From assembly GCA_946481265.1 (NCBI GenBank), contig CAMLNE010000213.1, positions 1-7,375 of the forward strand: 7,375 nt of DNA, given 5' to 3'. Position 1 is the stretch's first letter. The number at the start of each line of letters is the position of its first letter. The position numbers and the translations under genes were made by a program. The DNA is from an uncultured Panacagrimonas sp. (GTDB lineage: Bacteria; Pseudomonadota; Gammaproteobacteria; Nevskiales; Nevskiaceae). Under the pieces are notes generated by a model that was given only the letters and a program-made list of their open reading frames with translations, did no database searches and was not told the DNA's origin. Shown here piece by piece: positions 1 to 2,738 of this stretch.

Positions 1-56
1 CGTAGCGACGCAACCTGCGAGGCCGCGCGCGGCGGGGATCCGGTGAGTCGTGAAGG

Positions 57-77
57 GGTGCCCTCGGCAGGAATCGA
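57..77 (-). repeat. tRNA-Arg 3'-end copy in repeat unit 1
   Basis: These 21 bases match 275-295 of the tRNA gene exactly, that is, the T-loop end, the 3' half of the T stem, the acceptor 3' strand, the discriminator A and the first CC of the CCA end. The next base in the transcribed direction (56) gives CCC instead of CCA. The body of a tRNA is absent, so this is a fragment and not a second tRNA gene. Confidence 0.9.
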
Positions 78-165
78 CCACGCCCGCGCGGTTGGGGCAT
101 GGCGCGGAGCGTAGCGACGCAACCTGCGAGGCCGCGCGCGGCGGGGATCCGGTGAGTCGTGAAGG

Positions 166-186
166 GGTGCCCTCGGCAGGAATCGA
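166..186 (-). repeat. tRNA-Arg 3'-end copy in repeat unit 2
   Basis: Identical to 57-77 and to tRNA positions 275-295. Base 165 again gives CCC in place of the CCA end. On the tRNA-proximal side the match stops at 187, where the repeat has c and the tRNA has a. The match also continues past the tRNA end into the flanking repeat sequence, so the duplication includes both tRNA and downstream DNA. Confidence 0.9.
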
Positions 187-273
187 CCACGCCCGCGCGG
201 TTGGGGCATGGCGCGGAGCGTAGCGACGCAACCTGCGAGGCCGCGCGCGGCGGGGATCCGGTGAGTCGTGAAG

Positions 274-349
274 TGGTGCCCTCGGCAGGAATCGAACCTG
301 CGACCCTCCGCTTAGGAGGCGGATGCTCTATCCACTGGGCTACGAGGGC
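274..349 (-). tRNA. tRNA-Arg (anticodon CCU)
   Basis: Read on the - strand, the 76-nt gene folds into a cloverleaf. The acceptor GCCCTCG pairs with CGAGGGC, followed by discriminator A and an encoded CCA. The D arm contains GGAT. The anticodon stem TCCGC/GCGGA encloses the loop CTCCTAA, giving anticodon CCT. The T arm is GCAGG-TTCGATT-CCTGC. One D-stem pair (C with A) is not Watson-Crick. The tRNA decodes the rare arginine codon AGG, which is seen in this window in dacB, the CBS gene and opgD. The gene is transcribed leftwards, away from the lipoprotein gene, and is followed at once by the 109-bp tandem repeats. The 3' end of a tRNA is also a common integration site, but no integrase or element is seen here. 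Confidence 0.97.
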
Positions 350-512
350 GAAGCGCGAAGTCTAGCGAAACGCCCGCTCGCACTCACGCCCGGCAAACCT
401 CGGAAAACACTTTCCCTTTGGCCGCAAGTCGGTTGTTTGAGTTTGTACTTTCAAGCTAGCATCCCGCTCATATCGAAGCGCCGCGCAATGCCTGCGGCAG
501 TCTGGGGGTTCT
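350..512. other. Divergent intergenic region between tRNA-Arg and the lipoprotein gene
   Basis: No gene is seen. The stretch is poorer in GC than its surroundings around 395-460 and must hold the tRNA promoter (- strand) and probably the lipoprotein promoter (+ strand). A weak + strand candidate is TTGTTT at 433-438 with TAGCAT at 457-462 (18-bp spacer). On the - strand TAGACT (359-364) is a poor -10 candidate followed by a GC-rich CGCG stretch. That would suit a stringently controlled tRNA promoter, but it lies very close to the tRNA 5' end. Neither is secure. Confidence 0.4.
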
Positions 513-2738
513 ATGGGCAGTCACCGTTTCCTGCGGGCTCTCTTTGCCGCCCTTTTCGCGTTGGCGATCGCTGGTTGCGGAGGTGGCGGGGCCAGTGGTG
601 GGTTCGGTGACGGCGGCACGGATCCCGGAACGGATCCGGGCACCGATCCGGGGACGGACCCGGGAACGGATCCAGACGCGCCCACGGCGACGGGCCTTCT
701 GCTCACCCTGCCGGATGGCTCGCAGCTGGCCGGTGACGCGGATACGCCGGCGGAAGGGCTGCGCATCGTCGCGGTCGCACTGGACGACGCCAACCGCACC
801 GTGGCCGGCGTGCAGCTGCAGTTCTCGGTGAGCACGGGCGAAATCACGGGCGGCACGCTCACCACCGACGCCTCGGGGCGCGCCACGGCGACGCTGACCA
901 CCGCCAATCCGCTGCCGCGCGGCATCAACGTGACGGTCGAGGATCTCAACGGCAATGCCACCGCCACCACCGCGGTGACCGTGGTGGCCCCCGCCAGCAA
1001 CGCCGATCCGCAGCCACGGCTGGGCACGCTCAACTCCACGGGCACGGCTTTCGCCCAGGGCACGTTCTCGTTCCAGGTTTCACCGCTGGCCGCCGGAGGC
1101 AGCTCCGGTCTGCGCGTCGACATCTACGACGTCGCCAACAACGCGGTCATCACCGAGCCGGTGAACGTGACATTCAGTTCGCCCTGCATCACCGCGGGCA
1201 CCGCGGTCGTGAATCCCTCGGCGGCCGTTCCGAACACGGGCACGGCCACCGATGGCGCCGTGCTCGCCACCTACCAGGCGCGTGGCTGTTCGGGCAACGA
1301 CACCGTGACCGCGCGTGCCGTGATGGGCGGAACGGCGCAGACCGCCCAGGGCACCATCAACGTGCTGCCTTCGTCGCTGGCGAGCATCCGCTTCGTATCC
1401 GCCACGCCGATCAGCATCGGCCTGCGCGGCAGCGGCCTGCAGGAGACCTCGACCGTCACCTTCCAGGTGGTGAATGCCTCCGGTGGGCCGATCCCCAACC
1501 AGGAGGTGAGCTTCTCGCTCAATACCGATGTCGGTGGCATCGCACTGAGCCCGGACACTGGCACGACCGACACCCTGGGCAATGTCAGCACGGTGGTGAC
1601 TTCGGGCACGGTCAGCACGGCGGTCCGCGTGACCGCGACCGCCGCCAGCGGCGGATCAACGGTGAGCAGCCAGTCCGAGCAGCTCACGATCACCACCGGC
1701 ATTCCCGACCAGGACAGCTTCTCGCTGTCCGCCGAGTGCGTGAATGTCGAAGGCCTGAGCATCGACAACGTCCAGGTGCCGATGCTGCTGCTGGCCTCGG
1801 ACCGCTACAACAACCCGGTGCCCGACTCCACGGCGGTGACCTTCACCACTGAAGGCGGTTCGATCGTCGGCAGCTGCAACATGCAGGACGGCGCCTGCAC
1901 CGTGAACTGGCGCAGCCAGAATCCGCGGCCCCTGCCGTACAACGGCTGCGTGTCGGGCTCGGTGGCGGGGATGGACGATGCCCTGTGCTCCGCGGCAAGC
2001 CCCACCGGTGCGGCCCGCGCCGGCCGCAGCACGGTGCTGGCCTTCGCGGTCGGGGAGGAGAGCTTCGACGATCTCAACGGCGACGGCCTGTTCGACGTCA
2101 ACACGGAAGTCTTCGACGACCAGCCCGAAGCCTTCCTCGACCTGGACGAGGACGGCCAGCGCGACGAGACCGGGCCGACCGAGCCATTCCGGGACTTCGA
2201 CCAGTCGGGCGGGTTCGACCTCCCCGATGGCCTCTTCAACGGCCTGCTCTGCGCCACGGGGGATCCGAGCAACATCCAGTGCCCGCTGCCGCGCACCCTG
2301 CACGTCCGCGACAGCATCACGATCGTGATGTCGGGCTCGTCGCCGGTCATCGACACGAATGCGGCGCCGGTCGGCGACGTGACGGTCGGCGGGGCGGGCA
2401 TCTATGACCCGGGCACGCGCACCATCACGATCGACGCCAACCAGCTGTTCTCGCTGAGCGTGGTGGTACGCGACGTCAACGAGCAGCCGATGCCGGCGAC
2501 CACGGCCATCGAGTTCGCCGCGGACGGCGATGCGGGCGACCTGCAGGGGACCACCACGTTCAGCGTGCCCTGCATGAACGACGACCGCGCGATCGCCAAT
2601 ACCTACGGCGTGTCGTTCAAGGGTGCCGACCTGGAGCCGACCGATCCGCCGGGCTCCAGCGTTCTCGAGCTGACGGTGACCTCGCCCTCCGGCGTGGCCA
2701 CGATCCTTCCGTTCACGGTGATCACCAACCCGCCCTGA
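513..2738 (+). CDS. Secreted lipoprotein with tandem Ig-like (Big_1-type) domains and calcium-loop motifs
   Basis: The 741-aa product starts with a lipoprotein signal peptide: basic n-region (H4, R5, R8), hydrophobic core, and lipobox IAGC with the lipidated Cys at 22. Gly follows at +2, so outer-membrane sorting is likely. A Gly-rich stretch and four TDPG repeats (36-54) form a flexible linker. The rest is Ser/Thr/Val-rich beta-sandwich sequence with Big_1/invasin-like phrases (for example DASGRATATLT near 119 and VTFTTEGGSIVG near 442). Approximate domains are 57-158, 165-285, 288-395, 398-515 and 590-740. Residues 520-569 hold three DxDxDG-type loops. Ten cysteines besides Cys22 could form disulfides. 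The ATG at 513 gives a complete signal peptide; the upstream GGGGGT (504-509) is only a modest ribosome site. A terminator follows directly, suggesting a monocistronic unit. An adhesin or surface-structure role is inferred from domain type; the exact function is unknown. Confidence 0.9.
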   Translation: MGSHRFLRALFAALFALAIAGCGGGGASGGFGDGGTDPGTDPGTDPGTDPGTDPDAPTATGLLLTLPDGSQLAGDADTPAEGLRIVAVALDDANRTVAGVQLQFSVSTGEITGGTLTTDASGRATATLTTANPLPRGINVTVEDLNGNATATTAVTVVAPASNADPQPRLGTLNSTGTAFAQGTFSFQVSPLAAGGSSGLRVDIYDVANNAVITEPVNVTFSSPCITAGTAVVNPSAAVPNTGTATDGAVLATYQARGCSGNDTVTARAVMGGTAQTAQGTINVLPSSLASIRFVSATPISIGLRGSGLQETSTVTFQVVNASGGPIPNQEVSFSLNTDVGGIALSPDTGTTDTLGNVSTVVTSGTVSTAVRVTATAASGGSTVSSQSEQLTITTGIPDQDSFSLSAECVNVEGLSIDNVQVPMLLLASDRYNNPVPDSTAVTFTTEGGSIVGSCNMQDGACTVNWRSQNPRPLPYNGCVSGSVAGMDDALCSAASPTGAARAGRSTVLAFAVGEESFDDLNGDGLFDVNTEVFDDQPEAFLDLDEDGQRDETGPTEPFRDFDQSGGFDLPDGLFNGLLCATGDPSNIQCPLPRTLHVRDSITIVMSGSSPVIDTNAAPVGDVTVGGAGIYDPGTRTITIDANQLFSLSVVVRDVNEQPMPATTAIEFAADGDAGDLQGTTTFSVPCMNDDRAIANTYGVSFKGADLEPTDPPGSSVLELTVTSPSGVATILPFTVITNPP
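618..677 (+). repeat. 12-bp repeats encoding a TDPG linker
   Basis: Five near-identical 12-bp units encode TDPG four times and a final TDPD, just after the lipidation site. The units differ mainly at third codon positions (ggc/gga/ggg, acg/acc, gat/gac). The repeat is therefore maintained at the protein level and was not freshly copied. It likely spaces the folded domains away from the membrane. Confidence 0.9.

Follow-up and report, generated by a model that had tools for sequence, protein, structure and literature searches.

The window (the whole stretch of 7,375 nucleotides analysed here) begins with a tandem array of 109-bp units behind a tRNA-Arg(CCU) gene, and on balance we favour the view that this array is a tandemly amplified tRNA-linked element, namely a relative of RtT in inverted orientation. 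The RNA of that name is known chiefly from the tyrT locus of Escherichia coli. In the window, the array repeats the 3′ arm of the tRNA beside it, with the T-loop interrupted by a hairpin-bearing insert. Elements of the same build recur behind other tRNA genes, carrying those tRNAs' own tails, and copied tails begin at two positions of the T-loop, one in RtT-type and the other in window-type elements.

Anatomy of the tandem array

The features of the locus are as follows.

274–349, minus strand: tRNA-Arg, anticodon CCU, with encoded CCA (ARAGORN, Arg CCT; Rfam RF00005, 68.3 bits over 277–349)
1–273, minus strand: tandem array with a period of 109 bp, sense-downstream of tRNA-Arg(CCU), open at window base 1
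240–273, minus strand: leader from the tRNA to the first element, part of the 109-bp repeat, with copies at 131–164 and 22–55
165–239, minus strand: first element, consisting of a split T-arm and a tRNA 3′ copy (model R2, 27.3 bits, E = 2.1e-5)
230–239, minus strand: copy of the T-arm 5′ side, CTCGCAGGTT, with 9 of 10 bases as in the tRNA
187–229, minus strand: 43-nt T-loop insert with the motif TCGCTACGCTC and the hairpin CCAUGCC/GGCGUGG (hairpin by eye, on the model alignment)
166–186, minus strand: copy of the 21 nt preceding the terminal A of the tRNA, starting at T55, with CCA changed to CCC (from the sequence)
56–130, minus strand: second element, with the T-arm 5′ copy at 121–130, the insert at 78–120 and the tRNA 3′ copy at 57–77 (R2, 27.3 bits, E = 2.1e-5)
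1–21, minus strand: third element, interrupted by the window edge (identity with the start of the other elements)

The sequence-only reading had described a perfect 109-bp tandem array with a third unit merging into the tRNA, and this description was borne out. Positions 1–109 and 110–218 are 100% identical in the repeat comparison, and Tandem Repeats Finder reported a period of 109 with 2.7 copies and 99% matches over 1–295; as the array reaches window base 1, its perfection refers to at least 2.5 units. The third register (219–327) agrees with the other units at only 78%, because the tRNA begins at 274, while 219–273 repeats, as judged by eye, the start of the other units, so that the unit runs on into the tRNA. 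The array (1–273) lies downstream of the tRNA (274–349, minus strand) in its transcribed direction and every full unit contains 21 nt of the tRNA 3′ end (57–77 and 166–186), both as previously claimed. The base following this copy is C in both cases, in place of the final A of the tRNA's CCA. In addition, each unit carries a 9-nt stretch, TCGCAGGTT, identical to the 5′ side of the T-arm of tRNA-Arg(CCU); a match of at least 9 nt to the T-arm region was reached in 4 of 2000 shuffles, and to the whole tRNA in 38 of 2000. The tRNA-derived portions of the unit are the two sides of the T-arm, with 43 nt between them. Antisense pairing of the leader and the insert with the tail copy was no better than in shuffled sequences (677/2000).

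On the minus strand of 1–231 three frames are open through the array, the period of 109 not being divisible by 3. This is possibly due to the G+C content of 74% (44% C and 30% G in the unit), and the open frames were discounted as evidence of a coding role.

Since the array starts at window base 1, an assembly artefact at the contig edge might be suspected. A like 105-bp unit, however, stands in tandem in the Panacagrimonas MAG G001, and RtT-type units are found in tandem both in the complete E. coli K-12 genome and on large contigs from the order; we consider an artefact very improbable.

Recurrence behind other tRNA genes

Comparison within the order was based on 85 genomes, reached via G001. 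The MdoG protein, which was matched in 74 of them, indicated G034 (83%) and G001 (76%) as the nearest genomes. A search of related genomes had been recommended by the sequence-only reading, and its outcome was divided. Neither of the two nearest genomes has a tail copy behind tRNA-Arg(CCU), and when the tRNA together with the array was compared with the 85 genomes by BLAST (8 candidates scored per genome), the matches listed covered only query bases 1–87, which comprise the tRNA and a few further bases; a 41-bp match in G001 was dropped, as the stretch appears coding by eye. On the other side, elements of 105–108 bp were found in these two genomes behind Arg(ACG), Arg(TCG) and Gly(CCC), each with the tail of its own tRNA. 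The tRNA searches behind this result gave 46 matches in G001, 44 in G045 and 46 in G034, and the contexts scanned for tail copies numbered 207 from all loci collected and 37 for G034. In G001 the 105-bp unit behind Arg(ACG) is present in 1.6 copies. The tail copies of G034 lie behind Arg(TCG), Gly(CCC), Thr(GGT) and Ser(TGA), the latter two being of a make that differs from the window's. The G034 elements behind Arg(TCG) and Gly(CCC) share with that of G001 the T-stem, GTTCGCTNCGCTCACGCC, a hairpin, and GGTCGAWTC followed by the own tail. Among eight anticodons compared between G001 and G034, one pair, Thr(GGT), could be read as empty and filled, with a copy of another type. Behind tRNA-Ser(GGA) of G001 we also observed a long antisense tail copy (29 nt by eye; L249) and, at L313:1501-1516 (G001:C42:33680), the insert motif in the opposite direction.

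The pattern TCGCTNCGCTCNCGCC-N(8-38)-GGTCRAWTC was matched six times in 3 of the 85 genomes and the reversed pattern not once; all six matches fall inside a tRNA gene or within ~560 nt of one. To these six belongs L300:1443-1556 (G034:C1:1784898-1785011), where ~40 nt split the T-loop of a whole tRNA-Arg(TCG); this split gene, which scores 48.5 bits with the Rfam tRNA model, immediately precedes an intact tRNA-Arg(TCG).

The model R2 was trained on five of the six pattern matches (Arg ACG, Arg TCG twice, Gly CCC and Val GAC), with the window excluded. Over the 7375 bases it scored both window units at 27.3 bits (E = 2.1e-5); because the next best match had 14.4 bits and the intact tRNA 10.8, we take it that over half of the score of the units is owed to the insert. 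The insert is set apart from the shuffle level by R2 only and not by pairwise alignment, in which the window insert and that of G001 did not exceed shuffles (750/2000 local, 335/2000 global). Plain slippage duplication of the tRNA tail and its flank, with no inserted element, would agree with the perfect identity of the units and with the 1.6 copies in G001. Under such duplication, however, neither the R2 match nor the split T-arm is expected, and the intact tRNA has a low score with R2; we hold plain duplication to be rather improbable. The related suggestion of a scar of repeated duplication was correct as to the tandem duplication, but other tRNAs, too, are followed by the kind of T-loop insert that the unit contains.

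At E ≤ 0.1, R2 had matches in 29 of the 85 genomes, with noise mixed into the weak end. Twenty R2 loci were inspected, and 13 of them have a same-strand upstream tRNA whose tail (13–17 of 17 nt) recurs within 700 nt; the own tail is at the end of the R2 match in 11 of these 13 and outside it at L320 and L324. The seven loci lacking an own tail comprise L319, with its tRNA on the other strand, and six hits of 26.1–30.1 bits at which no tRNA was called; L329 and L331 are equally weak, yet a tRNA is called there. For L315, a locus starting at the contig start, the stretch inspected differs from the R2 hit.

We group these sequences as inverted-type tRNA-tail elements, a class defined in the present analysis. 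The window array belongs to it in that two units match the model trained without the window, the own tail starts at the T-loop base T55 (22 nt, with a terminal C in place of A), and the elements lie downstream of the tRNA on the same strand.

RtT-type elements and the two apparent orientations

The E. coli tyrT repeat had been named as the known analogue of the array. The Rfam RtT family RF00391 gave no match in the whole window at E ≤ 1 or in 1–420 at E ≤ 10, and its curated score of 45 bits was accordingly not reached; Plastid-ycf2, sX14, SpF41 and Afu_513, hit at loose thresholds, all remained under their own cut-offs. The same family was matched in 21 of the 85 genomes of the order at E ≤ 0.01, in 11 of them above the curated score. 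Downstream of some tRNA-Arg genes of the order the gene's own tail recurs in longer units, and these give Rfam RtT matches under the cut-off. Our RtT model R1, built from 20 cores including two from E. coli, had matches in 41 of the 85 genomes, and its best score for a window unit was 2.5 bits, with nothing higher on either strand. The window unit likewise lacks the RtT core GGTTCGA ... CCCGAAGGGYGA ... GARTAATCC in the tRNA sense. Hence the proposed analogy holds for the plan (own tail, insert-split T-arm, tandem units downstream of the tRNA), but not for recognition by the RtT models.

Comparison with E. coli tyrT shows the RtT unit as a T-arm in which a hairpin-bearing insert follows GGTTCGA and the arm continues at AATCC; the two T-arm halves pair with each other (RNAalifold, alignment A3). 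RtT-type elements follow Tyr, Gln, Arg and Ser tRNAs in the order, with at least 10 host anticodons (Tyr, Gln, four Arg, four Ser), as well as Glu tRNA in the wider class, and as a rule the tail is that of the host.

A window-type model, R3, was built from 21 matches, the window included, and at E ≤ 1e-4 was found in 34 of 369 Gammaproteobacteria. Six of 29 R3 loci have a same-strand upstream tRNA, five with its own tail (the same strand only having been examined). On the opposite strand, R1 overlaps R3 in 19 of the 29 wider loci (E ≤ 1.1e-4); in 15 of the 19 a tRNA lies upstream on the R1 strand, 7 to ~230 nt off, and the remaining four have a tRNA on the other side (two loci) or none called (two loci). 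The small number of same-strand tRNAs at R3 loci is thus accounted for by many of these being RtT-type elements viewed from the other strand. The converse test gave a weaker result: R3 applied to 24 RtT loci at E ≤ 0.1 gave 11 matches, i.e., three opposite-strand overlaps, one same-strand overlap and none in E. coli, the other seven being five intact tRNAs and two other places. The opposite-strand overlap is partly to be expected, since the hairpins are nearly self-complementary.

The clearest evidence comes from the length of the copied own tail, which separates the two types, being 18–19 nt in 28 of 29 RtT-type and 22–23 nt in 15 of 17 window-type copies, in a non-random survey of 74 copies from 282 tRNA contexts at loci selected by matching something; the 28 copies outside the motif classes include 19 of 18–19 nt, four of 22 nt and five of other lengths. 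The window's own tail has 22 nt, counting its mismatched last base. TTCGAA reads the same on both strands. A top-strand element placed 3′ of TTCGA would thus be followed by a tail from A58/A59, and a bottom-strand one by a tail from T55; these starts give the two lengths observed. By our reading, the bottom strand of the split tRNA gene in L300 has TTCGA, an insert ending in GAGC, and then AACTCCC, and the E. coli RtT insert ends in GAGT and is followed by AATCC. Both types would therefore fit, as far as their letters go, one polar element placed 3′ of TTCGA on either strand.

Hairpin covariation and conservation of the elements

In alignment A7, which like A6 was fitted to the structure of the model, 12 of 19 pairs changed on both sides (a value reached in 8/500 shuffles), the covariation score was 0.397 (0/500), and two-sided changes amounted to 56 cells against a shuffle mean of 18.0 (0/500), with a sharp drop for shifted pairings. 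As the alignment is a fitted one and palindromic DNA would behave likewise, the covariation falls short of proving an RNA role. The Gly(CCC) element shows 89 identities in 107 columns between G034 and G001, and the 103 bases beyond it 71 identities in 123 columns with 40 gaps.

These data bear on the possibility that the units are a processed trailer RNA under selection (an RtT-like small RNA or a module for termination and 3′ processing), with gene conversion keeping tail and tRNA identical and no mobility involved. The paired changes in the hairpin and the conservation of the Gly(CCC) element relative to the bases that follow it speak in its favour, as do the annotation of the E. coli RtT as a small RNA, rttR, and the Northern signals of RtT RNAs, encoded upstream of tRNA genes, in Actinobacillus pleuropneumoniae (PMC4986893). 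It follows from the same source that an association with several tRNAs is in itself already known. By eye, T-run terminator-like hairpins stand between the tRNA and the RtT element at L140, L142 and L149, which sits oddly with a trailer RNA in every transcript. The absence of the array behind the same tRNA in G001 and G034, and the split tRNA-Arg(TCG) of L300, which looks insertion-like, also count against an explanation by selected trailer RNA alone; we regard it as unlikely, though the strongest competitor of a tandemly amplified tRNA-linked element.

Surroundings of the array

Six window genes were scanned, encoding a Big_1 lipoprotein-like protein, a D-Ala-D-Ala carboxypeptidase, CBS, S4 and CoA-binding proteins, and MdoG. 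Named relatives of the lipoprotein-like protein include proteins of a Panacagrimonas MAG and a Nevskiaceae bacterium, and a genome scan with its family gave 137 relatives, the best 80 being retained. A 12-bp repeat at 618–673 codes for an Asp-Pro-Gly-Thr run in this protein, and contig L001 begins within a relative of its gene, at query residue 89. The adjacent tRNA-Arg(CCU) faces away from this gene in the window and towards it in G034, G002 and G003; comparison by eye of window 274–349 with L263:3523-3599 points to an apparent local inversion. G001 has the upstream sequence of the window, its contig ending there. L002 and L003, from MAGs labelled Algiphilus and Acidovorax, have equal match coordinates and scores and are possibly one contig binned twice.

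The sequence-only reading had also raised a tRNA integration hotspot. The corresponding explanation, that the units are tandem core-site copies left by a tyrosine integrase targeting the tRNA 3′ end, finds a basis in phage contig L122, which carries the last 29 nt of tRNA-Arg(CCU) (1353–1381) ~115 nt upstream of a reading frame (53–1237) matching Pfam Phage_integrase; this tail is likely an attachment site for tRNA-Arg(CCU). This tail beside an integrase gene lends the hotspot idea partial support, but the scan of six window genes revealed no integrase; what borders the array on its far side lies beyond the window. Moreover, the insert recurs behind tRNAs whose tails differ, and the ends of the copies lie at two fixed T-loop positions. 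We consider an attachment-site scar to have only a slight chance of being correct. In viral contigs the leader pattern matched 0 stretches and the tail pattern two, one of them a phage tRNA-Val. A stretch of viral contig L123 (8278-13160) has 14 tRNA genes, and its tRNA-Val(CAC) bears the 21-nt tail of the window tRNA.

Proposed origin and role

Under the favoured view of the array as an inverted-orientation relative of RtT, the unit would consist of a short leader and a copy of the adjacent tRNA's 3′ arm (T-stem, acceptor 3′ strand and CC) with a palindromic insert in the T-loop. The RtT insert starts after GGTTCGA, and the window insert seems to be turned round, ending before TCGAWTC. Such an array would most likely have arisen in three steps: a duplicated tRNA 3′ end would supply a dispensable T-loop, a palindrome would come to lie in it, and the unit would then be multiplied through unequal recombination between near-identical copies.

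The array is probably transcribed as a trailer of the pre-tRNA, because it lies sense-downstream and no minus-strand terminator was found between tRNA-Arg(CCU) and the array. A scan for sigma-70 promoters in window 1–700 found none. By analogy with the tyrT locus of E. coli, such a trailer would play a part in termination and 3′ processing. Older work linked Rho to E. coli tyrT, and the C-rich unit would suit Rho.

Arguments can be advanced both for selfish insertion (the T-loop target, the two orientations, the split whole tRNA) and for function (the conservation behind Gly(CCC), the known RtT RNAs). More tentatively, and with odds that we place somewhat against it, RtT and window elements may form one lineage of tiny non-autonomous palindromes that insert site-specifically into the near-palindromic tRNA T-loop on either strand; the tandem arrays would be their amplified form, and survival would be secured by the intact tRNA beside the duplicated tail.

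The window kind adds further tRNA hosts, and the two kinds together show two apparent orientations and two fixed T-loop break points; site-specific insertion at TTCGA offers a concrete, testable origin. The natural arrays also offer material for asking whether such repeats end transcription, yield excised RNAs or are merely carried. As a caution, tandem tRNA tails are not necessarily scars of integrases.

Comparison with known systems

Integrase attachment sites in tRNA genes resemble the window in their direct repeats of the tRNA 3′ end, whereas no island lies between the repeats within the window, the unit is of 109 bp and the T-loop breaks are fixed. With REP/BIME palindromes the window elements share the character of short intergenic palindromes, but differ in being tied to tRNA tails; rtT-like elements upstream of gatY, rbfA and cvpA have been reported as BIME members (PMC2965389).

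Inverted-type elements occur in Nevskiales and other Gammaproteobacteria behind Arg(ACG), Arg(TCG), Gly(CCC), Val(GAC), Lys, Pro and Phe tRNAs. The window agrees with them in motif, hairpin, break at T55, own tail and position. Several of them have CTCGCTNCGCTCGC and the hairpin loop YTCCNGR (by eye), whereas the window has TCGCTACGCTCCGCG, a longer loop, and CCC for CCA.

A literature search over titles and the beginnings of abstracts, with subscription journals mostly outside its coverage, found neither T-loop inserts nor two orientations for such elements. With RtT (RF00391, E. coli tyrT) the window array shares the sense-downstream position and the tandem units, and with the E. coli tyrT repeat also the 3′ end of its own tRNA and the hairpin-bearing insert splitting the T-arm. 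It differs from the latter in unit length (109 bp against 178) and in the own tail (21–22 nt against 19). The CCCGAAGGG core, present in RtT, is missing from the window in the tRNA sense, and the window insert appears to read opposite to that of RtT.
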